DNA of 64,000 nt, from NCBI GenBank assembly GCA_016191165.1, contig JACPPF010000037.1, forward strand, positions 1-64,000, in the 5' to 3' direction. The position numbers and the translations under genes are program-made. This DNA is from Planctomycetota bacterium. Its GTDB lineage: Bacteria > Planctomycetota > Planctomycetia > Gemmatales > Gemmataceae. Position 1 is the stretch's first letter. The number at the start of each line of letters is the position of its first letter. The notes under the pieces were generated by a model. The model did not search any database. It was given only the letters and a program-made list of their open reading frames with translations, and was not told where the DNA came from. Positions 12,737-58,021 of this stretch are shown piece after piece.

Positions 12737-15700
12737 ATGCGACGAAAACTGAACGTCAAGTTGGTTGCTATCGTTTTTGGCGGCCTCCTCGTTGTCGGCG
12801 CCGCCGTGCATTTCGTGCATGGCTATCAACTCGCTCGCAACGCCCATCGGCTGCTGGAGCGGGCCGATGACGCGCGCGGCGAGAACGACCTGGATCGGGC
12901 GTTGACGCTTTACGATCAGTATCTCAAGTTTGTTCCCAACGATGTCGAGACCGTGCAGAAATATGCAAGGGCACTCGACCAGCGCGCTCGCAGCGGGGAC
13001 GAGCGGGTGCAGGTGGTCCTCAAAATGGAGCAGGTTCTGCGCGTCAAACCGGGCGAGCACGACCTGCGTTTTCGGCTCGTGCACAACCTGATCGCTCTCG
13101 ATCGCTACCCCGAGGCCCTGAGCCAGTTGCGGAAACTGCAAGGCGTCTGGCACGACAAGGCGCAGGTGCTGCACATGATTGGCTGGTGCCAGGATGCGCA
13201 GAAGGAATACGCCCAGGCGGTTCGCTCCTTCGAGGAGGCCAAGCGAACCAATCCCAAACAACTCGCCAGTTATCACCTACTGGCCGAGGTGCTGCAAGAT
13301 CGCCTGAACCAGCCCGATGAGGCGGCCAAGGCCATGGACGAGATGATCCAGAAAAACCCGGCTTCCTGGGAAGCGTACCTGTCGCGGGCGCGCTTCCATC
13401 GCCGGCGCGGCGAGGAGAAGCCAGCGCGCGTCGATCTGGAGCGTGCCCTTGAACTCAGCCCGAAACAGCCGGAGGTGATCCTCGAAGTCGCTGATGCCGC
13501 CCGATTCCGCGGCGACTGGCGTCATGCCGTTGATCTGCTGACAACGGGGTCGAAGCTGTATCCAGGCGACGAACGGTTTTACATCGAGCTGGCGCGGGTC
13601 AAAATGCAGGCGGGCAAACCAGGGGAGGCGATCGTTCATCTCAAGCAAGGCCGGCAACACGCGCCGAAGTCCGCCGAGCTGGCCGTGCTCACGATCGACT
13701 TGATGATCGAACAAGGCGCGCTGACCGAGGCAGCGAAAAAAACGGCCGAGTTGATCCAGACCGGCGGGCAATCCGGATTGACGAGCTACCTTCAGGCTCG
13801 TTTGAGCCTGGCCGAGAAAAAATGGAGTGAAGCGATTCGGCTCCTGCACCGCGCCGGGCAAGACCTGGGGCCGCGCTCACGCTGGAGCGCGCGCGTCAAC
13901 GTCTACCTGGGCCTGGCCTATCGGCAACTCGGCGATCGCGAGCAGGAGTTGGAAGCCTTTCAGCGTGCGGCCGCGGCGGAACCGGGGTGGGCGCCGGCTG
14001 GCATTGGTCTGGGCGAGGCGCTGCTCAGTGCGGGACGAGTTGAAGACGCCAGCCAGACGTTGGAGCCATTACAGGTCGCGCGCGATTTGCCTAATGGGTA
14101 CTGGTCCGTGCTGGCGCGATGCCGGCTGAACCAGCAAATGCGGCTGCCTGCCGCAAAACGCGCCTGGGAGCCGGTGGAAGCCGCGCTGCAGCGAACGGAC
14201 GCCACGTCCGTCGCGGCGATTCTCGTACGCGCCGACTACCTGTCAGCCCGCGGGGACTTCAAAGCCGCCGAGGCGCTGCTCGGCAAGGCAGCCTCGACGG
14301 ATGCCAACGAAATCTTGTTTCCCTGCGCGCTCGCCGACCTGGCGGCCCGGCAGAATCAATTGGCTGCCGCCGAGGCGCTTCTTGAAAAAACCGCGATGCA
14401 AAAACAGTTTGCCGACCGCCTCGAATGGCGGCTGGCCCTGGCTCGCCTGTGGAGCCAGCGCAACGGCGCCAGCGATCGCGCGAAGTTGACGGGCCTGGCA
14501 AGGCGATTGCCCGCCAACGCATCCGCCGAGACGCGTGCCCGGTTGTGGCGAGAATTGGCGGACCTGTGGACCGCGCTGGGCGAGCCAGGCCGGGCCGAGG
14601 AACTCACCGCCGCGGTCGCAAGTGCATTACCGCTGAATCTGCCGAGCCGGGTCGCTCTCTTCGAGCGGGCGCTACAAAAGGACCAGGTCGGCATCGCCCG
14701 GGCCCGCCTTGGCGAGATTCGCGCCATCGAAGGCGAGCAAGGCGGCCTCTGGCGCTGGGCAGAAGCGGCGTTACTGGTCCATCAAGCGCGCGGGCGAATC
14801 TCCCAGCTGGCGCAAGCGCGTAAACAACTACAAACGCTACCGGCCAAGAGCAAGAATTGGCCGCGCGTGGCTCTGCTTTCAGGCGCCATTCACGAGTTGG
14901 AAGGAAAATACCAGAAGGCCATCGAGGATTACACGCGCGCCCTGGAACTGGGCGAGACGCAACCGCGCGTGCTGGCAAGCGTCCTGGTGCTCCTGGTGAA
15001 TCGACGCGAGTACGCCCGGGCGGAGGCGGAGATTGCGAGATACGAACAACGGCTGCCTTTGACGCGGGACCTGGCTCGCCTTGGCGCGGAGATTGCGTTG
15101 AAGCTGCGCGAAAAGCATCTTGCGAAGGTGGCGCTGGCGCGGGCCGAGCGCGCGGTCGAAGTGCCGACGCGCGACTACCGCGACGCGCTTTGGCTGGCGC
15201 GCATTTACCAGGGCGCCGGGGAAGCCGCGAAGGCGGAGCCACTCCTGCGCGCGGCGCTGGACCAGGCGGGCCATGCACCCGATACCTGGATCGCCTGGAT
15301 GCATTTTCTGTTTCAGGCGAATCGGCGTGACGAAGCGTTGAAAGACCTGGAACGTCTCAAGAAGGAGATCGCGCCAGGCCGGCAGGCGTTGACGCTGGCG
15401 CGCTGCTACCAGACGCTACATCTGCCGGGACGCGCCGACGACGCCTATCAGGCCGCGTTGAAATCAACGCCGGACGACTTCGGCGCGCTCGCCTATGCCG
15501 CCGACTTTTATCGCCAGGCCGATCGTATCGACACCGCCATCAAACTATACGCCCGCCTGCTTGACGCGAAGCTGGCGGCGCCTGCTCAACTTACCCTGCG
15601 CGCGCGTCGGGACCTTGCGATCTTGCTCGGCAGGCGCGGGGAGCCAACGCGCGCTCTGGCCGTGCTCGACGCCAATCGCACGTTGGGCGGCGAAACCATC

Positions 15701-16072
15701 GCCGATCGGCGGATCAGGCTGTACTTGCAAAGTCTCGCGCCCGCGGCAAGGCAGGACGCCATCGACCAGTTTCAGCTCACGCTGCGCGCGCAACCCGCGT
15801 CGGCCGACGAACGCGTGCTGCTGGCGTCCATGCTCGAATCGGCCAGGCAATTTGGCCCCGCGCGCATGCTACTGGCCGAGGTTGTGGCCGAGCATCCCGC
15901 CACGCCCGTCTACCTGACACGCTACGCATCTATTCTTATTCGCATGGAGGAGACCGAAGAAGCCGAGCGCGTGCTGGCGCGCCTGGAAGCCCTGGAACCT
16001 GGAAGCGAGCGCGCGCGAACGCTGCGGGCGGAATTGAAGCTGGTTGGGCTGAAGGGGGTCCGCGCACCGTAG
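12737..16072 (+). CDS. large membrane-anchored TPR-repeat protein
   Basis: The 1111-residue protein has one N-terminal transmembrane anchor (VKLVAIVFGGLLVVGAAVHF, residues 7-26) and then tetratricopeptide repeats almost to the end. Clear repeat units include LLERADDARGENDLDRALTLY, ALDRYPEALSQLRKLQGVW, PDEAAKAMDEMIQKNPASWE and EKYQKAIEDYTRALELGETQ. The superhelix would project into the periplasm and scaffold protein complexes. The length and anchor resemble the PrsT/PelB-type TPR proteins of exopolysaccharide export, but no such genes surround it. It is monocistronic, and a perfect palindrome follows its stop. The protein is rich in Ala, Arg and Leu, as expected for a GC-rich genome. Confidence 0.92.
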   Translation: MRRKLNVKLVAIVFGGLLVVGAAVHFVHGYQLARNAHRLLERADDARGENDLDRALTLYDQYLKFVPNDVETVQKYARALDQRARSGDERVQVVLKMEQVLRVKPGEHDLRFRLVHNLIALDRYPEALSQLRKLQGVWHDKAQVLHMIGWCQDAQKEYAQAVRSFEEAKRTNPKQLASYHLLAEVLQDRLNQPDEAAKAMDEMIQKNPASWEAYLSRARFHRRRGEEKPARVDLERALELSPKQPEVILEVADAARFRGDWRHAVDLLTTGSKLYPGDERFYIELARVKMQAGKPGEAIVHLKQGRQHAPKSAELAVLTIDLMIEQGALTEAAKKTAELIQTGGQSGLTSYLQARLSLAEKKWSEAIRLLHRAGQDLGPRSRWSARVNVYLGLAYRQLGDREQELEAFQRAAAAEPGWAPAGIGLGEALLSAGRVEDASQTLEPLQVARDLPNGYWSVLARCRLNQQMRLPAAKRAWEPVEAALQRTDATSVAAILVRADYLSARGDFKAAEALLGKAASTDANEILFPCALADLAARQNQLAAAEALLEKTAMQKQFADRLEWRLALARLWSQRNGASDRAKLTGLARRLPANASAETRARLWRELADLWTALGEPGRAEELTAAVASALPLNLPSRVALFERALQKDQVGIARARLGEIRAIEGEQGGLWRWAEAALLVHQARGRISQLAQARKQLQTLPAKSKNWPRVALLSGAIHELEGKYQKAIEDYTRALELGETQPRVLASVLVLLVNRREYARAEAEIARYEQRLPLTRDLARLGAEIALKLREKHLAKVALARAERAVEVPTRDYRDALWLARIYQGAGEAAKAEPLLRAALDQAGHAPDTWIAWMHFLFQANRRDEALKDLERLKKEIAPGRQALTLARCYQTLHLPGRADDAYQAALKSTPDDFGALAYAADFYRQADRIDTAIKLYARLLDAKLAAPAQLTLRARRDLAILLGRRGEPTRALAVLDANRTLGGETIADRRIRLYLQSLAPAARQDAIDQFQLTLRAQPASADERVLLASMLESARQFGPARMLLAEVVAEHPATPVYLTRYASILIRMEETEEAERVLARLEALEPGSERARTLRAELKLVGLKGVRAP

Positions 16073-16120
16073 CCGTTCCTGTTTCCCCGCAATCATGTTC
16101 GTCGAGCGGAGGGATACCGG

Positions 16121-16181
16121 CCCCACGCGCAAGCGTGGGGGTTTAGGCTGCCTGCCAAAACCCCCACGCTTGCGCGTGGGG
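16121..16181. repeat. perfect 24-bp inverted repeat (family C)
   Basis: The arms at 16121-16144 and 16158-16181 are exact complements (core CCCCACGCGCAAGCGTGGGG) around a 13-base loop. Each arm is itself palindromic, so cruciform alternatives exist. It lies at the convergent junction of the TPR gene and the ABC exporter gene, where it may terminate both. Confidence 0.85.
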
Positions 16182-16246
16182 CTGGTCAAGAGCACATCGA
16201 CGAACGATATTTCGTTTACGCGGCTGGGGCCTTACCCTGTTTGGCG

Positions 16247-18463
16247 TCAGGCCGGCGAATCTTCCGCCGTCGGCGCGGGCGCCGCGGGACTTGCCAGCCC
16301 GGCAAATTCGTTGAACTCCATGTATTGAAGGTGGCGGTACAACTCGCTGGCGTTGATCAACTCGCGATGATCCCCCACGGCCTCCAGCTTGCCCTCGTAT
16401 AAGAGAAAAATCTTATCGCAGGCACGGAGGGTCGTCAGGCGGTGGGGCAGAAAGATCACCGTCCGCTCGCCCACGAAACGCTTCAGCGTGTCGTCGATCA
16501 GCCCCTTCGTGTCCTCATCAAGAGGCGTCGCCGGCTCCTCGATCACCAAAATCGTCGGATCGCGCAGGATGGCGCGCGCCAGGGCGATACGGAACATCTC
16601 TCCCTGCTTCAACGGGTGGCCCAGCTCGCCGATGAGGGTCTCATAACCCTGCGGCAACTTGGACACGAACTGATGCACATGGGCCACCTTGGCCGCATCG
16701 ATGATGCGCTGGAGGTTGTAGGTCGGATCGCCGCAGCCGATGTTGTTGGCGACCGTGTCGTTGAAGACCAGATTGGGTTGCAGGATCATGGCGATTTGAA
16801 TGCGCAGCGAATCGAGCGTCACCCAGCGCAGGTTCTTGCCGTCGATGCGCACTTCGCCGTGGGTGGGATCCAGAAAGCGAGGCAGCAGGTAGACGAGGGC
16901 ATGCTTTTCAGCCTCGTCAGGTCCGACAATCGCGACGCGCTCCCCCGCCTTGATAGTCAGGCTGATGTTTTTGAGCAGCTTGCGTCCGTTGCCTGGCTCG
17001 CGCAGCGAAACCTGAGCGAACTCGATCTCCGTGGTCATCTGGCCGATAAACTCCGCCTCGATTGCCTGGCCGACGCCGCCGTGGCGATCCAGGAAATCGA
17101 AGAGCGCGACGGCCGCGGCCCGGCTGCGGCGCACGATTCGGCGTGCCGACAAGAACGTCAACACCGGCCAGTAAAGACTGATGATCGCCGACGCGAGCAC
17201 CAGGGAGCTGGTGACGCCGAGTTGCCTGGCCAGGATGACATTCCCCGCCACGAACAGCAACACCATCGCGGCGAGAAGTCCGAGAAAAAAGAAAAACGAC
17301 CGATAGATCGCCTCGCCGCGGTACCGCGCTAGCTGTGCTTTGGCGTACCCGCTCAGCTGGGTTTCCAGACGCGCCTGGCTGAACGCCTCCATCAGGTAGA
17401 CCTTGATGAGCCGCATTAGCATCAACGTCTCCTGAATCAGCACCAGCTGATCCGCGGAGCGCATCTCGGCCCGGCGACCCCGGCGCCGGAAAAAGGCGGC
17501 GATCTGGCCTCCCACGATCCACACCAGCACCGCAATCAACAAAAACGCCAGCGATAGCCAAAAATGGATCACGAAGGCAAAACCCAGCACCAGCGCGAAT
17601 TTGACCGGCTCGCGAAAATACACGGTCAGCCAGTGATAGAGTCCATCGTGAACGCCCTCAAGATGCCGGGTGGATGCGCTGACGGCATCGCTGGGCCCCA
17701 GCGTGCGAAAGGCCAGCGGGCCGAGCCGGCTGGCTTGAAAGTAGATCGAGCGCCTTAGCCGAGTGACCGCTTCCAAGACCGCGACCGCGCCGAGATAATT
17801 GGAAAGGTAAAGCAAGCCCAGGCGCGCGATCGCGATGCCAACGCCCGCCAGAAAAAGCCCGAGAAGGAACTCTTGATTGCCGCGCACCCAGGTCCAGTCG
17901 TTCCAGACCGCGAGCGGAGCCAACCACCGGGCGTGCATGGTAAAGCGAGTGCGTACAACCAGGCTCAAGAGGCCGCACGGGCCGATCGCCTGGTGCGGCG
18001 TGGCCTCGACACCGTAACGCCGATTGGCGGCGCGGACTTCCGCACGGACCGTTTCCGCGGCGGCTGGACTCACGCTCGCGTCCAGCCAGCGCGTTGTATC
18101 GGCCAGCCAGAGCAGGGCCGGTTCCCGCGGCGACCAGGCCTCGATCGGGTCTCCCTTCGCCCACTTGCCGACGTGTTGGGCATCGAAACCGAGGGATTTC
18201 AGTTCGTCCTTGATGGCTTGCATCCCCTCCGCGTCGTCAGGCGTCGGTAAGTCCTTCAAAAAGCGATGGCGATCGGCGGTGGATAGCTGGTGGTACGCGG
18301 GAATTTCGCCTTGTTCCACAAGCAGGTCGATGAACAGTCCCAAAAGTGCGATCAGGGCCAAATAAAGAAACGCGGCGCCGATCGAGGCGAAAATGGACAG
18401 CCACCTCGCCAGGGGATGATATCCCAAAAACGCACGGCAACGTTTGAACGCGTTGTTGGGCAT
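16247..18463 (-). CDS. ABC exporter-like protein with degenerate nucleotide-binding domain
   Basis: The 738-residue protein has the architecture of a type IV ABC half-transporter: transmembrane helices in about residues 20-430 and a C-terminal ATPase-like domain from about 480. The nucleotide-binding motifs are abnormal. The Walker A position reads G514-PDEAEKHA with Glu at both inner glycines (E517, E519) and H521 in place of Ser/Thr; only K520 is kept. The signature is LKQGE (618-622) rather than LSGGQ. The Walker B aspartate is Glu (E642), followed by E643. The switch-region His survives in LPHRLTT. It may be a catalytically dead partner or may bind ATP unusually. An extra N-terminal insertion (about 45-170) between the first helices is also unusual. 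Coding integrity over 2.2 kb argues against simple decay. Confidence 0.85.
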   Translation of the reverse strand: MPNNAFKRCRAFLGYHPLARWLSIFASIGAAFLYLALIALLGLFIDLLVEQGEIPAYHQLSTADRHRFLKDLPTPDDAEGMQAIKDELKSLGFDAQHVGKWAKGDPIEAWSPREPALLWLADTTRWLDASVSPAAAETVRAEVRAANRRYGVEATPHQAIGPCGLLSLVVRTRFTMHARWLAPLAVWNDWTWVRGNQEFLLGLFLAGVGIAIARLGLLYLSNYLGAVAVLEAVTRLRRSIYFQASRLGPLAFRTLGPSDAVSASTRHLEGVHDGLYHWLTVYFREPVKFALVLGFAFVIHFWLSLAFLLIAVLVWIVGGQIAAFFRRRGRRAEMRSADQLVLIQETLMLMRLIKVYLMEAFSQARLETQLSGYAKAQLARYRGEAIYRSFFFFLGLLAAMVLLFVAGNVILARQLGVTSSLVLASAIISLYWPVLTFLSARRIVRRSRAAAVALFDFLDRHGGVGQAIEAEFIGQMTTEIEFAQVSLREPGNGRKLLKNISLTIKAGERVAIVGPDEAEKHALVYLLPRFLDPTHGEVRIDGKNLRWVTLDSLRIQIAMILQPNLVFNDTVANNIGCGDPTYNLQRIIDAAKVAHVHQFVSKLPQGYETLIGELGHPLKQGEMFRIALARAILRDPTILVIEEPATPLDEDTKGLIDDTLKRFVGERTVIFLPHRLTTLRACDKIFLLYEGKLEAVGDHRELINASELYRHLQYMEFNEFAGLASPAAPAPTAEDSPA

Positions 18464-18693
18464 GCGCGATCCCTTCCCTCGGACCCCCGAAACAGGCGGT
18501 CGGATCCCGATCGCGATCCGCCCGTTCCGCCATTGTAACAGAGGACGTTCTTTTTTGGGAATCGCCTTTTGCCGGAAGGGAAGCGAGCAATCAAAGAACC
18601 CGCGCCTCGCGGCGCAGTCCTACCACCTGGGCAAGAATTGCGGGGGGATCGCCCCGATCACCCGGCGTGAACGAGTAAATCCGGGAAGATCGG

Positions 18694-19878
18694 TCAGGCG
18701 ACGTCGCGATCCTCGAAGAGGATCAAACCCGCCAGCATCGCGATTGCGGTGTACGTGAGGGCGTAAAGGGCCACGTTCAGGGTATACGTCGCATAGCGTG
18801 CCGGATCGAGGGGCACATCGCGGATGATGGCGGAGCTGACATCGAAGTTTGCCAGCCCCGGCAGCAGCAACTCGAAGAGTTGCGCGAAGAAATGCACCAG
18901 CGGCAAACGCTGGCTGACCTCGGTCATGATCGGCGCCAGATGGCCCAGCAGGTAGATCACCAGACAGGCCGTGAGGTTGACGACCATGGGCATGCGGGTC
19001 GCCAGGGCGACACTAACCGCGGTCAGCGTCAACACTTGCCCAAAGCCGATGACCAGGCCAGGCAACGCCTCACTCACGTCGCTGGCCCACAACCCGATGC
19101 CGCGAATCATGCCCCCCGATGCCGTTTGGCCAAACGGGGTCGCCATCATGTCCGCCACCCAGACCGGGTCGGGCGGCAACTGGGTGATGCCGGGCGAATA
19201 GTCATAATACGTTTTCGCGAGCACGACCCAGATCAGCACCCAGCCCATCAGCATCGTCATGAACAGGCCCGCCAGCGTGATGCCGAAAAACTTGCCAAGC
19301 AGGAAATCCCGGCGATTGATCGGCTTGCTCAACAGTGTGACTGCCGTTCGGCCTTCGATCTCTTCGCTCACGGAGATACTCGCGGAGATGACGCCGAAGG
19401 CGGCGGGAAAAAGCATGGTCAAGGCATAGGTGATTTCCTTGACCATCTTGAGATCTTCGCCGAAGGTGAAGTAAGGGATGACGATGGCAATCGCCATGAA
19501 CAGGGCGCCGAGGCCGGTCAGCATCCAGAACATCGGCTGACGCACGCCTTCCCGATAGGCTGCTAGCGCGACCGCGCCGCCCTTGGGCCAAAACGTCAGG
19601 AGGAGGTAGAAGGTCAGGACGAACAGATCGATGCCAATCTGCAAGGTCAAGACCGAGGTATAGAGTCGGCCCCAGATCGCGACGAAACGGGGATCGCTGT
19701 TCGCCCCGGCCAGGAGAGCGAAAACCAGGCCGCCCGCGGCGACTCCGCCTACCAATTTGGCGTAATAGCTCGCTTGCGCGCGAAAGGTATTGCGGGAGAA
19801 CGCGAAAAGCCACGGAATCGCCGCCAGGCCCTGCACCGCGAACAGACCGACACAAAGCAACAGGAAATCGAACGACAT
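18694..19878 (-). CDS. ABC-2-type transporter permease
   Basis: The start at 19878 lies one base beyond the stop of acyP (19880), so the upstream open frame to 20076 is not used and translation is probably coupled. The 394-residue product has six or more membrane segments and the cytosolic block ISASISVSEEIEGRTAVTLLSKPINRRDFLLGKFFG, which is diagnostic for ABC-2 permeases of the NatB/YhaP kind (EExEGT-hhLLxxPI-R-hhGKhhg). It would form the membrane channel of an exporter or of a gliding/copper type ABC-2 system. No ATPase gene is adjacent; the degenerate ABC protein downstream is a different class. The partner ATPase must be encoded elsewhere. Confidence 0.9.
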   Translation of the reverse strand: MSFDFLLLCVGLFAVQGLAAIPWLFAFSRNTFRAQASYYAKLVGGVAAGGLVFALLAGANSDPRFVAIWGRLYTSVLTLQIGIDLFVLTFYLLLTFWPKGGAVALAAYREGVRQPMFWMLTGLGALFMAIAIVIPYFTFGEDLKMVKEITYALTMLFPAAFGVISASISVSEEIEGRTAVTLLSKPINRRDFLLGKFFGITLAGLFMTMLMGWVLIWVVLAKTYYDYSPGITQLPPDPVWVADMMATPFGQTASGGMIRGIGLWASDVSEALPGLVIGFGQVLTLTAVSVALATRMPMVVNLTACLVIYLLGHLAPIMTEVSQRLPLVHFFAQLFELLLPGLANFDVSSAIIRDVPLDPARYATYTLNVALYALTYTAIAMLAGLILFEDRDVA

Positions 19879-19879
19879 C

Positions 19880-20149
19880 TTAGATCCGTATCTCAAAGCT
19901 GGAAAAGGAATCGCACGCCACGTCCGCCATCGTCTGCTCGCGGATGAGCGAACCCATCCGCTCCGACACCGCTGCCAGAAACGCTGCCACTTCCCCTGAT
20001 TCGCCGCTTGCCACGACTTCCACTCCGCCGTCAGGCAGGTTGCGGACGTAGCCGGTGACCGCGAAGCCCTCGGCAATGCGCTTCGTCGTCATCCGAAAAC
20101 CGACGCCCTGGACCCGGCCACGATAATGAACATGCTTGCAGGTTTGCAT
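19880..20149 (-). CDS. acyP: acylphosphatase
   Basis: This 89-residue protein matches the full acylphosphatase fold. The motif [36 protein letters not shown] holds the phosphate-binding loop, the catalytic Arg (GFR) and the Asn in GYVRN. It hydrolyses carboxyl-phosphate bonds such as acetyl phosphate or carbamoyl phosphate in the cytoplasm. It ends one base before the ABC-2 permease start. The stretch belongs to a minus-strand run nadK-acyP-ABC-2, where the first gap is 93 bases. Confidence 0.95.
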
Positions 20150-20242
20150 GACAGGGATCCTCCGCCGCGTCGACGCCTCGATGGGCTCGAGGTCCAGTCG
20201 CGGGCGGAAAACGGCATCGATTCCACTACGTTGTACGACTTC

Positions 20243-21091
20243 TCAAGGTTCACCACGGTAACTCGGCGTCGTGCCCCAGCGGAGTTTGTCGCGCAAAGTC
20301 TGGTAATAGGTGTGCCCCGGGACTTTGACCAGCTGAAACGTCACCGGGGCCTTGCGAATCACGATCCGATCCGCCGCGGTCACCTCGGCGGCCGTCTGCC
20401 CGTCCACCACCACGGCGGCTTTCTCCGCGCCGCGACCCGGGCGGATTGTATATATTTTCTCCGCCGACTCGACGATCGGCCGGCTCGTCAGCGTGTGCGG
20501 GCAGATCGGTGTGATGGCGAATGCGGCGAGCGTCTGCCCGAGGATGGGCCCGCCGGCCGAGAGGTTGTGCGCCGTCGAACCGATCGGCGAACTCACGATC
20601 AGCCCGTCGCCGCCGAAACGCGACACGACCTCGCCATCGACCTCCAGTTCCAGTTCGATCATGCGCATCGGCGGCAATGCGTGGACCACCACTTCATTCA
20701 GTCCGAGAATGGTTTCCGTCTTACCCAGCGCGGTTGATTCGATTACGCACTCGAACATCAGGTGATTCGTGACGCAATATTTCCGCTGTACGACTTGCTC
20801 GAAACAGCCAGCGAAATCCCGCGGATGAATGTCGGCCAGGAACCCCAGGCGCCCCAGATTGATGCCCAGCACCGGAACTTGGCGATAGCCCATCTGCCTC
20901 GCCGCACGTAGAATCGCCCCATCGCCGCCGAAAACCAAGGCCAGGTCGGCGATGGGCAAAGCCGCGAGGTCACACGCCTGTTTGAGATCGGTGACGATAA
21001 CTTCCACCCGACCGGCGAGCAGCGGGCCGCAGCGTTCGACTTCCGCCGCGACGCCGGGGCGCTCGGCATTGCCCAGCACGTAGACTTTCAC
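20243..21091 (-). CDS. nadK: NAD kinase
   Basis: The 282-residue enzyme has the family's GGDG motif (LVFGGDGAILRAARQ, near residue 53), the block LGINLGRLGFLADI, and the C-terminal glycine-rich signature DGLIVSSPIGSTAHNLSAGGPI. It phosphorylates NAD(+) to NADP(+) with ATP. The GSTAHNLSAGG block has His-Asn where GSTAYSLSAGG is usual, which I take to be a lineage variation. The gene heads a minus-strand run with acyP and an ABC-2 permease. It is divergent from the ceramidase-like gene with a 113-base spacer. Confidence 0.95.
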   Translation of the reverse strand: MKVYVLGNAERPGVAAEVERCGPLLAGRVEVIVTDLKQACDLAALPIADLALVFGGDGAILRAARQMGYRQVPVLGINLGRLGFLADIHPRDFAGCFEQVVQRKYCVTNHLMFECVIESTALGKTETILGLNEVVVHALPPMRMIELELEVDGEVVSRFGGDGLIVSSPIGSTAHNLSAGGPILGQTLAAFAITPICPHTLTSRPIVESAEKIYTIRPGRGAEKAAVVVDGQTAAEVTAADRIVIRKAPVTFQLVKVPGHTYYQTLRDKLRWGTTPSYRGEP

Positions 21092-21204
21092 GGCGAAGAA
21101 TCCCTTGGTGGGGTTGCAGGTTCTCTTTGGCTTAATCTATGGACAAATCCACGGCCCAGGGACGAACGTCCCTTGGCTTTCTGCACCGCAGAGGAGGTTT
21201 ACTC

Positions 21205-53261: not shown

Positions 53262-54137
53262 TCAATCATTTCCAACCGGAACGCGGGCGTGCTCGACCAT
53301 TGCGTGATAGCTTGCGGCATCGGCTTGGGGTTTCGCTGATCCCGGCGGCGGCGTTTGCTGGGGGTAGGCATGTTCCTCGAGGAACTCGATGAGGTATTCG
53401 CGCAGCCTGTAGTAGTCGGGATGGGCCATCACCTCTTCGCGACCGCGCGGCCGAGGGAAGGAAACCTCCAGGATGTCGCCGACGCGCGCCGCCGGGCCAT
53501 TGGTCATCATGACGATGCGATCCGCGAGAAACAATGCCTCATCGACGTCATGGGTGACCATCAGGGCTGTTTTCTGGTTTTCGTTCCACAGGTCAATCAG
53601 CACCTGCTGAAGTTCAAAACGGGTGAGCGAGTCGAGCATGCCGAAGGGTTCGTCAAGGAGCAGCAAGCGCGGATCAAGGGCGAACGCGCGCGCCAGGCCC
53701 ACGCGTTGCCGCATGCCGACGGAAAGCTCAGGCGGCTTCTGGTGCACCGCATCCCCCAGACCGACCAGAGTCAGAAATTTGGCGGCAATCTCGCGACGCT
53801 GGTTGCGCGTCGATTGCGGGTAGATCTGATCGACACCGAGTTGGACGTTGCCGAGCGCGGTCATCCAGGGGAGCAAGCACGGGGCCTGGAAGACGACGCC
53901 GCGATCGGGGCCTGGGCCTTCGATTTTCTTGCCCGCCAAAATCATTTCGCCGCTGGAGAGCGGGTTGAGTCCCGCCACCATGGACAGAACCGTCGATTTG
54001 CCGCACCCGGAGTGGCCGATCAGGCAAACGAATTCGCCCTGGCGCAGGCTGAGATTGAAGTCCTCGACGATCACCGCCGAGCCCTTGGGTGTCGGATACG
54101 TTTTACCAACGTTCCGCAGGCTGAGATAAGGATTCAT
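53262..54137 (-). CDS. ABC importer ATPase (NrtD/SsuB type)
   Basis: The 291-residue protein has Walker [10 protein letters not shown] (near 43), the signature [17 protein letters not shown], Walker [13 protein letters not shown] and H-loop [10 protein letters not shown], all canonical except for V in the LSGGM position. The Q-loop is [12 protein letters not shown]. The family energises nitrate, bicarbonate, sulfonate or aliphatic uptake. The C-terminal 60 residues ([20 protein letters not shown]) extend beyond the usual end. It overlaps the preceding ATPase gene by 4 bases (ATGA), so the two are translationally coupled and probably form a heterodimer. Confidence 0.95.
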
Positions 54138-54976
54138 ACCGCCTCCCGGACCAGGCCGAGCGGAACGTCAAACGCCGGTATGGGGGCGGTTTTCCTGCGG
54201 ATCCTCGGATTGGAACCAAGCAGATAGTGGATTACCTCGGCCCGGATTTTCTGAAAGCGAGGGTCGTGATTCATCGCCTTTCGGTCACGCGGGCGTGGCA
54301 GGTTGACTTCAACCGACGGCCCCAGCGTCGCCCGCGGGCCATGGCTAAGCGGAACGATGCGGTCGGCCAGCAGGATGCCCTCATCGACATCATTCGTGAT
54401 CATCACGACGGTCTTCTGGTCGCGCCTCCAGATGCGTTCAATCTCGTCCTGCAAGGTGGCGCGGGTCAGCGCGTCGAGAGCGCCAAGCGGTTCGTCCATC
54501 AACAGAATGCGCGGCTCAACCGCCAGGGCGCGGGCCAGGGCAACGCGTTGCCGCATGCCGCCGGACAGTTCATTTGGCCTCTTGTTGCGCGCGGGGGTCA
54601 AGTTGACCATCTCGATGTACCGCTCGGCATGTTCGGTCTTGTTGGCCTTGGTCCAATCGGGAAAGACCTGATCGACGGCGAGATAGATGTTGCCAAACAC
54701 CGATTTCCAGGGGAGCAGGGAATAGTTTTGAAAAACGACGCCGCGATCGGGCCCAGGGCGGGTGATTGGCTTGCCCTCCAATCGCAGCGAGCCGCTGTCA
54801 GGGGCGAGCAGGCCGGCGATCATCGAGATCAGTGTACTCTTGCCGGCGCCAGAATAGCCGACGATGGCGACGAATTCGCCCTGCTCAATCTCGAGGTTGA
54901 TGTCCTTGAGAACTTCGACCCGGCTGCCGTTGTAGCCGAAGCCTTTGCACACTTTGGAGAGTTCGAGAAGAGGCAT
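54134..54976 (-). CDS. ABC importer ATPase (NrtC-like ATPase part) with Asn at the switch position
   Basis: The start at 54976 has GAGGA upstream. The 280-residue protein has Walker [11 protein letters not shown]-loop [13 protein letters not shown], signature [17 protein letters not shown] and Walker [14 protein letters not shown]. The switch region reads [12 protein letters not shown], so Asn stands where the His of the H-loop is usual. In the paired ATPase the His is present. A heterodimer with one weakened site is therefore possible. Unlike cyanobacterial NrtC it has no C-terminal solute-binding domain. It follows the permease gene by 76 bases. Confidence 0.94.
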
Positions 54977-55052
54977 TTTGGGTTCCTCATAGGTTGCTTG
55001 CAGCCTCGCCTTCGCATGGCGCCATGCGCGAGCGAAGGCGTTGGCGGCCGGA

Positions 55053-55835
55053 CTAGGCGAAAACACGCTTGAGGTTGTTTTCGACGATGCTCATGATTCG
55101 ATCCATGGCAAAGCCGACGATACCGATGGTGATGATGCATAACAGGATGTGCTCGAAAATCCCGCTGTTGTATTCCTGGTAAAGAAAGTTGCCCACGCCG
55201 GGAATACCAGTGAGCATCTCCGCCGCGACGATGACAAGCCAGGCAATCCCGAGGCTCAAGCGGAAGCCGGTGAACATGTACGGCAAGGCCGCGGGCAGGA
55301 GCACCGAGAAAAGCGTCCGGGTCCGCGACAGGCTAAGGACGCGCGCCACGTTCAGGTAATCCTGCGGGATTGAACGCACTCCCACCGCCGTATTCAGCAC
55401 CGTGGGCCACATCGCGCAGATGGCAATGGTGAAAATCGCCGCCGGTTCGTTCTTGTGAAACAGCACCAGCCCGAGCGGAAGCCAGGCCAGCGGCGACACG
55501 GGCCGCAGAATCTGAAAAATCGGGTCAAACGTCCTGGTGAAAAAATCCGACAGGCCGAGACAGAAGCCCAAAGGCACCCCAAGCAATAGCGCCAGGGCGT
55601 AGCCCTTGGCTACAAGGATTAACGAATACAGAGTAAAGCGAACGATCCCCTGATCCTGAACGCCGCGGTGCGCGAACGGCTCGGTGATGTAGAGCTTGCT
55701 CTTGTCCCAGGTTTGCCCGGGCGAAGGCAACTTGCCGGCCCAGGTTTCGCTGGAGGCGCTCCAGATTGCCAGCACCAGAGCAAGACCGATCGCGGGCAGG
55801 ACCACCCAGTCGAACTTGAAACGGAAATTCTTCAT
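55053..55835 (-). CDS. ABC importer permease (NrtB/SsuC type)
   Basis: The 260-residue membrane protein has six segments and the EAA-like loop [34 protein letters not shown], which contacts the ATPase. [12 protein letters not shown] near the N-terminus and [13 protein letters not shown] are typical of nitrate/bicarbonate/sulfonate permeases. It forms the membrane pore of the importer. The start is at 55835 ([16 protein letters not shown]); the longer frame to 55925 lacks character. Between it and the solute-binding gene lie 116 bases. Confidence 0.95.
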
Positions 55836-55951
55836 GCCACATTTCTCTCGTTTAGTCGCAATTCGAATGTGAGCGGGGTCACCAACCCCTTCGCTTGCAG
55901 CGAGGCGCACAGCCCGCGCGCCCATGAGGCCGCGGCAAGACCGGGGCTTTA

Positions 55952-57208
55952 CTAATCGCGGCGGTTGTGGACGGTGAACGCACGGGCGTAATCCTCAGGC
56001 CGGCGCGGGTCGAATGTGACGCGATCGAACAACGTCTCCGGCGTCATGTTCGGGCCGCCGTGTTCATAGTTGAGTTCGCGCATTGCTTCTTCGTACAGGT
56101 CGGGCCGCATCACCTGGTCGGCGATCCCCTGATAGTCGGGCGTGCCGGTGACCATGCCCCAGCGACGGAACTGGGAAAGCCACCAGATCGCATACTTCTT
56201 TTGCGGATAGTTGCAGTTGCGATCACTGAAGATCATGTAGTTGGGATCTTGACGGGTGCGGCCGTCGCCGAAGTCGTAAGTGCCCTGCATGCGCGGGAGA
56301 ATCCGCTCGGGCTCACAGTTGACGTAGGTCGTGCGTGAAATGATCTGAGCTTGTTCGGGCCGATTGGACATGGTGTCGAGCCAGACGCTCGCCTCGTGGA
56401 GCGCCTTGAGGACGGCCTTGACCGCGCCCGGATTGGCGTCGGCGTAATCCTTGGTGAAGGCACACACTTTTTCGGGATGATCGCGCCAGATGTCCTGCGA
56501 GTTCAGGGCCGTGAAGCCGACGCCATCCGCAATCGACTTGGCATTCCACGGTTCGCCTACGCAGAAGCCGTCCATCGACCCGACGGCCACGTTGGAAACC
56601 ATCTGCGCGGGCGGAATAACGATCAGGCGCACATCGTTGTCTGGATGGATGCCGCCGCTGGCCAGCCAGTAGCGCAGCCACATGGCGTGGGTGCCGGGCG
56701 GAAACGTCATGGCGAACGTCATCGGCGTGCCGGCGTCGCGCGCCCGATGCACAATGGGACGAAGCGGCGCCGGATCGTCGCGCACCTGACCGCGCAGCGC
56801 TGCCTTCAACGTGATGCTCTGGCCGTTGCGATTGATAATCCAGGGGATGATCATCGGGACGCGTGCGGCGCCCAACAGCCCCATGGTGGACGCGAGGGGC
56901 ATGCCAAAAAGCATGTGAGTCGCTTGAATGTCGCCGCTGACGAGTGAATCACGGATCGACGCCCAGCTTGCCAGCTTGTTGACGGTGGAATTGACGCCGT
57001 GTTTACGGAAGAAGCCCTTCTCATGGGCGATCACGATTGGGGAGCAATCGGTGAGCGCGATCATGCCGAATGTGATGTCATATCCCGACGCGGATGAACT
57101 CGAACAACCGCCGAGCAAAGAGGCTGCTCCGAGACCAGCGACGGCGGAACCGAGAAATCGCCGCCGAGTTACTCCGGTGCCAGGGTTTTTGGGAGGCGAG
57201 GATTTCAC
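55952..57208 (-). CDS. ABC importer solute-binding lipoprotein (NrtA/CmpA type) with Tat signal
   Basis: I start the gene at GTG 57208, because GAAAGGA lies 5 bases upstream and a twin-arginine signal (R15-R16-R17-F-L-G) with lipobox L32-G-G-C35 follows. The 418-residue protein binds small oxyanions such as nitrate, bicarbonate or taurine. Blocks ATHMLFGMPLASTMG, FPPGTHAMWLRYWLASGG and DGFCVGEPWNAKSIADGVGF match NrtA/CmpA proteins. Together with the permease and two ATPases it makes a complete importer. Longer in-frame starts (to 57430) give a low-quality N-terminus. Which anion is bound is unresolved. Confidence 0.93.
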   Translation of the reverse strand: MKSSPPKNPGTGVTRRRFLGSAVAGLGAASLLGGCSSSSASGYDITFGMIALTDCSPIVIAHEKGFFRKHGVNSTVNKLASWASIRDSLVSGDIQATHMLFGMPLASTMGLLGAARVPMIIPWIINRNGQSITLKAALRGQVRDDPAPLRPIVHRARDAGTPMTFAMTFPPGTHAMWLRYWLASGGIHPDNDVRLIVIPPAQMVSNVAVGSMDGFCVGEPWNAKSIADGVGFTALNSQDIWRDHPEKVCAFTKDYADANPGAVKAVLKALHEASVWLDTMSNRPEQAQIISRTTYVNCEPERILPRMQGTYDFGDGRTRQDPNYMIFSDRNCNYPQKKYAIWWLSQFRRWGMVTGTPDYQGIADQVMRPDLYEEAMRELNYEHGGPNMTPETLFDRVTFDPRRPEDYARAFTVHNRRD

Positions 57209-58021
57209 GGTCGTCCTTTCGCATGAGACCCGGCGTAGATTGATTGGCGCGCACCACCACCGTTGAGGCAGAATGTCTGCACAATTCACTCCTACTGGGT
57301 TGATGAACTTCCAGTGTCGATAGCGTGTTGGAACCCAACGGTTCGCACCCTCGGCTCCTCGCCGCAACTCCCGGGTTCGTGGAGTTGAGGCATGTTCTTG
57401 AATGATGGACAAAAGCGATTTGTGTGCCAAACCATGTGACGCCTCAAATAGTTGCTGTAACCCATTTTTGAATCAACACTTGCAACGGCACGTGCCGGCC
57501 CCAAACTTGATTATCGGCATCGCACGCCGCTCGATGAACGAGCAGGCCTCGCCAAACAATTGGGCATGAACGCAAGGGATTTGACGTGCAACTGCCGGCA
57601 AACTGGGGATTGGTCCGATTTGTTCACCGCAAAGAACGTGAAGAACGCTCAGAGAGCAAGAATAAGCCAAGCAACTTATAAGTAAAATAAACTATGTGTT
57701 GCTTTTTCAGTGGGATGGATCACCCCAACTCCGTTTCTCGGGATTCTCCGCGGTGATTTTTTTGGAGAATCTACTGCACGCGCTCGATATTGGCACATTG
57801 GTCACGAGCCGCGACCGTGAGGGAGCGGGAACAGGCCCAACGCTCCCCCACGGTCGCGGCTCGGGCAGTATGATCAGGATCATGGGATGAAACCCAAGTC
57901 TTAATCTTTGGGCGCGAAAAAACGAGGTCGTCCCAACGCAACCAGGGCTCCGCGGCGCGGGTCTGGCGTGTCAAGTTGATAATGGCTTTTTCCTGGTTCG
58001 TCGCCGGGACCCCGAGGGAAA
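57209..58021. other. 813-bp spacer upstream of the importer and downstream of the ParA pair
   Basis: No gene is convincing here; a 65-residue minus-strand frame at 57473-57670 looks like chance. The segment 57240-57500 is the leader or promoter zone for the importer, and AT-rich stretches around 57670-57700 could be promoter-like. A palindromic repeat sits at 57805-57863, near the end of the ParA-partner gene. Confidence 0.55.
57805..57863. repeat. palindromic repeat (AGCCGCGACCGTGAGGGAGCG type)
   Basis: CGAGCCGCGACCGTGAGGG... (57805-57827) and its inverted partner (57841-57863) pair at 22 of 23 positions, with a 13-base loop. It resembles a degenerate half copy at 5510-5536. Confidence 0.85.

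Follow-up and report, generated by a model that had tools for sequence, protein, structure and literature searches.

In the usual view, an ABC exporter cannot do without at least one functional ATP site. In pseudoenzymes, including pseudo-ATPases, the active site has been lost while the fold and purifying selection are kept, as appears to be the case in the family described here, which we call the pseudo-ABC family. We know of no published family of ABC exporters in which both sites are dead, and searches of an open-access library showed no paper on the pseudo-ABC family. Its closest described relatives are MsbA and other homodimeric type IV (ABCB-like) exporters, with which it shares the half-transporter architecture of a transmembrane domain (TMD) and a nucleotide-binding domain (NBD). 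According to PMC7756269, one degenerate site is common among exporters, and the members of this group (TAP1/2, TM287/288, TmrAB, CFTR, and Pdr5) resemble the pseudo-ABC family in their evolutionarily kept loss of consensus ATP-site residues; they keep one canonical composite site, whereas the pseudo-ABC family would lose both. A second precedent comes from PMC4979069, in which MsbA without its NBD (MsbA-MD) and LmrA-MD carry out proton-coupled transport. Like the pseudo-ABC proteins, these are exporter TMDs without a working ATPase, but they are laboratory truncations, whereas the pseudo-ABC family is natural and has a full pseudo-NBD. In the same source, removal of the Walker A Lys from full-length MsbA led to strong inhibition in cells; thus, a dead NBD can block transport.

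The window, the whole 64,000-nucleotide stretch of planctomycete DNA that was analyzed, contains the gene for such a protein at positions 16247 to 18463 on the minus strand. The frame runs from ATG to stop, and its 738 codons are intact, as the sequence-only reading had stated without giving a strand. Residues 1 to 195 (17879 to 18463, minus) comprise TM helix 1 and a long loop before TM helix 2, predicted to be helical from the alignment and the secondary structure of a model. By the usual exporter topology, this loop would be extracytoplasmic; in the alignment, the N-terminal part is long in Gemmataceae and shorter elsewhere. It is followed by an ABC_membrane domain (residues 186 to 434; 17162 to 17908, minus; Pfam PF00664, 1.1e-18), whose most conserved stretches, for example R237, R246, and residues 351 to 359, appear to coincide with the expected places of the coupling loops. 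The pseudo-NBD (residues 476 to 712; 16328 to 17038, minus) retains the ABC fold according to Pfam and a model of the domain, with an ABC_tran match (PF00005, 6.8e-17) at residues 497 to 645. Both the ABC_membrane domain and the ABC-type NBD fold of a type IV exporter are therefore present, and a sequence comparison with the PDB places ABCB-type exporters closest.

The full-length AlphaFold2 model, built from 4 sequences, was poor (mean pLDDT 55.4, pTM 0.34) and served only for the N-terminal secondary structure, where residues 53 to 165 mostly had a pLDDT of about 72 to 87. For the NBD alone, an alignment of 6 rows, 2 of them distant intact ABC proteins, gave a model with a pLDDT of 74 and a pTM of 0.75 in which a normal ABC domain was predicted. 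Its superposition on ABCB-type NBDs, at a Z of about 27, was best at Z 27.8 with an rmsd of 2.3 over 245 residues. The NBD of the pseudo-ABC protein is thus predicted to be folded like an ABC domain. The best NCBIfam matches were MsbA models, but the score for TIGR02203 (267.4 bits) was far below its curated cut-off of 602, which does not permit assignment as an MsbA lipid A exporter.

In contrast to MsbA, the protein lacks both the Walker A and the signature motif. The Walker A site (residues 514 to 522; 16898 to 16924, minus) reads GPDEAEKHA (G514-P-D-E517-A-E519-K520-H521-A), with E517 and E519 in place of both inner glycines and H521 in place of Ser/Thr; the P-loop Lys520 is present. From the sequence and the family alignment, the signature (residues 618 to 622; 16598 to 16612, minus) is LKQGE. 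In the Walker B region (residues 639 to 644, LVIEEP; 16532 to 16549, minus), Glu (E642) replaces the Asp and is followed by the retained catalytic Glu (E643) and a family-specific Pro. The letters that had been given for these motifs from the DNA alone were right. Accordingly, three marks of a functional ABC ATPase were looked for and not found, namely, a Walker A GxxGxGK[ST], an LSGGQ-like signature, or a Walker B Asp paired with the catalytic Glu. The window copy does have the Q-loop Gln562 and the H-loop His674 (16442 to 16444, minus). The His switch had been noted as remaining, which holds for this copy but not for the family, as most relatives lack it. Elsewhere in the window, two ATPases, a permease, and a binding protein are encoded at 53262 to 57430 (minus), a cluster that we take to be a nitrate/sulfonate-type ABC importer. 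Its first ATPase (53262 to 54137) combines a normal Walker A with an altered signature, LSVGM in place of LSGGM.

The motifs were then counted in an alignment of 117 unique sequences (124 minus 7 duplicates), truncated genes included; L031 to L033, copies of genes already in the set, had been removed before the 124 were counted. The pattern G..G.GK[ST] occurred in 0 of the 114 family members with a readable P-loop and [LIVMF]SGG[QE] in 0 of 117, the signature site being aligned without gaps in 115, whereas both motifs were present in 31/31 intact outgroup proteins. Further members beyond the alignment were likewise degenerate (6/6, 11/11 with 3 counted before, and 7/7), so that the P-loop was degenerate in all 135 readable relatives (114 + 6 + 8 + 7), with the signature gone too. 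At the Walker B Asp position, Glu was found in 107/117 rows and Asp in none, and both the catalytic Glu and the next Pro were present in 114/117. The D-loop Asp was present in 100/117 rows, but the Q-loop Gln in only 54, the P-loop Lys in 53, and the H-loop His in 46. Asp was common at P-loop position 3 (88/117). Replacement P-loops differed between groups: sequences like GPDEAEKH were frequent in the window's own order and sequences like SLDPLAPR in group f2. Thus, alignment of the homologs, which the sequence-only reading had proposed for Gemmataceae, revealed a loss common to relatives far beyond that family and no single conserved replacement motif. Judged by these sequences, the ABC ATPase of the pseudo-ABC family is very probably dead. 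Two observations count against this reading: the near-universal catalytic Glu is odd for a fully dead ATPase, and the window copy retains the P-loop Lys, Q-loop Gln, and H-loop His.

Profile searches were confined to the window's phylum, with mostly draft genomes. With the query P0001 at E <= 1e-100, a match was found in 66/95 genomes of the window's family group. In the order sample, a second family group, f102, had a strong match in 7/7 genomes among the matches listed. A profile of 35 members (A2) found matches in other groups of the class, of which 20/20 examined were degenerate. Among 392 genomes of the phylum, P0001 at 1e-100 found only its own gene; therefore, a broader profile of 37 members (A3) was used there. 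Besides the window's own gene, it gave 28 matches above 590 bits, all degenerate, which came from 27/27 f2 genomes among the matches listed and from the one f6 genome; we take f2 and f6 to be probably Pirellulaceae and Isosphaeraceae. The next match, at 474 bits, had an intact ATP site. In 165 of the 248 sampled class genomes there was exactly one match at E <= 1e-145, and 11 genomes from the low-scoring end of these were degenerate without exception (11/11). The family is retained across several family-level groups of planctomycetes, and these searches suggest that it is single-copy and, within the phylum, found only in the window's class, Planctomycetia.

Directly upstream of the window gene lies a gene for an ABC-2 type membrane protein (18694 to 19878, minus; Pfam PF12730/PF12679; C-terminal end FEDRDVA). 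Such a gene was found directly upstream on the same strand in 33/44 neighborhoods; its stop ranges from 55 bases within the pseudo-ABC open frame to 341 bases ahead of it. It was not found there in 11/44 loci, one of which (L180) ends at the contig edge. In the window, a gap of 230 bp (18464 to 18693) separates them and holds the one promoter-like match in 15900 to 21200, a region in which 1.2 such matches are expected by chance. Further upstream are an acylphosphatase gene (19880 to 20149, minus; Pfam), which a single base separates from the ABC-2 gene and which is a same-strand near neighbor in 14/44 neighborhoods, and a preceding NAD kinase gene (20243 to 21091, minus; Pfam), a near neighbor in 8/44. 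A CysQ/IMPase-like phosphatase gene lies downstream of the pseudo-ABC gene in 16/44 loci (for example, L125, L127, L135, and L140), all of them from the window's order, which contributed 24 loci; no such gene follows in the window. Genes named from sequence, and presumably dxs-like and polyprenyl-synthase-like, occur at 4 loci each. None of the phosphatase, NAD kinase, dxs-like, and polyprenyl-synthase-like neighbors was general, and all were set aside as hints of function. Convergent to the pseudo-ABC gene, a 1,111-aa repeat-rich protein, presumably TPR-like, is encoded at 12737 to 16072 (plus); it was not a conserved neighbor in the compared loci.

The ABC-2 protein occurred as one copy in 32/32 genomes tested, including 12 of groups f3 to f5, and in 17/22 other genomes, where the five misses were drafts 59 to 74% complete. 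The pseudo-ABC family was not found in the 12 tested f3 to f5 genomes that have the ABC-2 protein, which can therefore work without it. Behind the ABC-2 gene, nothing ABC-like was found in 8/8 genomes of groups f3 to f5 or in 6/6 genomes with the pseudo-ABC gene elsewhere.

In six of six Gemmataceae genomes from groups g27, g30, and g36, where the family had seemed to be missing, the ORF directly behind the ABC-2 gene was a diverged one that matched the profile. The same was found in 7 of 14 further genomes in which the family was missing or weak; in the other 7, nothing ABC-like lay behind the ABC-2 gene, the L335 sequence ending soon after it. These 13 ORFs had neither a Walker A (0/13) nor a signature at its place (0/13), L348 having a chance SGG[QE] away from that site. 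Of three of the diverged proteins searched against Pfam, L307 gave no match and the other two only a weak ABC_tran, borderline in L309. L307, L308, L309, L341, and L342 are examples of hyper-diverged pseudo-ABC proteins encoded directly behind the ABC-2 gene. Bit score alone did not separate the family everywhere, as intact proteins reached 474 bits and hyper-diverged members scored 130 to 475; the latter were recognized by synteny together with the profile match. Synteny thus finds diverged members that family models miss.

The members had been gathered with a degenerate query, and motifs had played a part in the first sorting into family and outgroup; to break this circularity, a tree was built without the motif columns. 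One branch with an SH-aLRT of 100 split 39 degenerate from 31 intact rows. Family members clustered largely by taxon, with the exception of L121 and L123, long-branch Gemmataceae that fell beside other groups. One ancient loss followed by vertical descent would be the simplest reading of this unrooted tree.

Entropy was compared in thinned sets of 51 family and 28 outgroup sequences. The ATP-site columns had a mean of 2.20 bits in the family versus 0.09 in the intact outgroup, while the other NBD columns had 1.68 versus 1.52. As the rise is confined to the ATP site, this site has been released and the rest of the domain held. The columns of the Walker A, the Q-loop, the signature Ser and first Gly, and the H-loop were no less variable than the median column of the domain, whereas T549, K592, H595, D657, D658, and R662 were fixed in the family but variable in the outgroup. 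The dN/dS of the NBD was 0.014 to 0.28 in 41 of 50 non-independent pairs (>76% identity), the other 9 being saturated in dS, and was mostly below that of the TMD. For the window gene, dN/dS was 0.133 over 220 codons against a fragment from the nearest congener (G062), while two further congeners gave values of 0.204 and 0.155; dS exceeded 1 in all three comparisons. The family therefore combines an active-site loss common to orthologs with purifying selection on the domain, as expected of a pseudo-ATPase family. This result supports the earlier proposal that a pseudo-ATPase has been selected for and that the gene is not decaying, and we regard it as almost certain that a pseudo-ABC family is being kept by selection. 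An altered nucleotide preference, offered as its alternative, gained no support because most old ATP-site columns now equal or exceed the domain median in variability.

A related possibility is that the NBD acts as a sensor that binds a different nucleotide or a phosphorylated ligand in a remodeled P-loop. The common Asp at P-loop position 3, the newly fixed residues outside the old ATP site, and the NAD kinase and phosphatase genes near some loci would fit such a role. However, a new phosphate pocket should be conserved, the opposite of the variability seen in most old pocket columns, and the nucleotide-related neighbors are not general; we thus consider a sensor improbable. Somewhat less likely again is that the protein pairs with a second chain that hydrolyzes ATP, in a heterodimeric exporter of the TAP or TM287/288 kind. 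The same genome does encode an MsbA-like paralog (G000:C47; L113 in the alignment) with intact motifs and 29% identity, and one-site degeneracy has the exporter precedents described above. Against this, no other ABC ATPase gene was seen in 42/44 neighborhoods, the window included, the two exceptions being 5.5 and 8 kb away. Moreover, since the Walker A and the signature are both gone from one chain, neither composite site would be complete with any partner, whereas the degenerate exporters described above from PMC7756269 retain a canonical one. The check for an intact partner, suggested by the sequence-only reading, thus found none in these 42 neighborhoods, and such a partner could not rescue hydrolysis.

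Unconventional ATP binding or hydrolysis through the kept catalytic Glu pair and the H-loop is very unlikely. E643, E642, and the D-loop Asp are indeed widely kept, but no readable row retains the inner P-loop glycines, and the Lys, H-loop His, and Q-loop Gln each remain in fewer than half of the rows. Local decay of this copy, as a pseudogene or through sequencing error, could have been suspected from the simultaneous change of several active-site residues but is practically excluded by the intact frame, the dN/dS of 0.133 against the nearest relative, and the loss common to independent genomes across the class. The case of homologs with normal P-loops and one degraded copy did not arise, and chance or sequencing error is ruled out because relatives from many separate assemblies have the same loss.

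We therefore favor, with reasonable though not strong confidence, an ancient pseudo-ATPase type IV (MsbA/ABCB-like) exporter with folded but dead NBDs, which would have an ATP-independent role and may work together with the ABC-2 protein. The ATP-independent role is preferred because no composite site would be complete and because MsbA without its NBD provides a precedent. As the ATP-using parts were lost and the gene was long kept, its job probably needs no ATP of its own. Whether the protein works with the ABC-2 protein is evenly balanced in our judgment; counting against it are the ABC-2 genes in genomes without the family, the 11/44 loci in which no upstream ABC-2 gene was found, the six genomes with the pseudo-ABC gene elsewhere and nothing ABC-like behind the ABC-2 gene, and the 230-bp gap in the window with its chance-level promoter match.

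In the proposed mechanism, the pseudo-NBDs would act on the TMDs through the kept coupling surfaces, holding or gating them like a brace that is either fixed or operated by a ligand. The pseudo-ABC protein and the neighboring ABC-2 protein may act together in the membrane, and a substrate, perhaps lipid-like, could be moved by facilitated or ion-coupled alternating access. Alternatively, the pseudo-ABC protein might be a non-hydrolyzing subunit. ATP-free transport is a tentative proposal, and a purely structural or regulatory role is just as tentative. The most specific version is more speculative still: an exporter lineage without ATP, in which the TMDs would be gradient-driven or form a gated scramblase, the dead NBDs would act as gate or regulator, and the ABC-2 protein, which lacks a linked ATPase, would take part.

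Automatic annotation would label these proteins ATP-driven pumps. If the lineage is indeed an ATP-free exporter, it would represent in nature what the NBD-less MsbA and LmrA represent in the laboratory. A family without both ATP sites, yet kept as a single copy across planctomycete groups, would separate the exporter fold from its fuel and offer a natural system for asking whether transport by the membrane domain of an exporter is possible without ATP.
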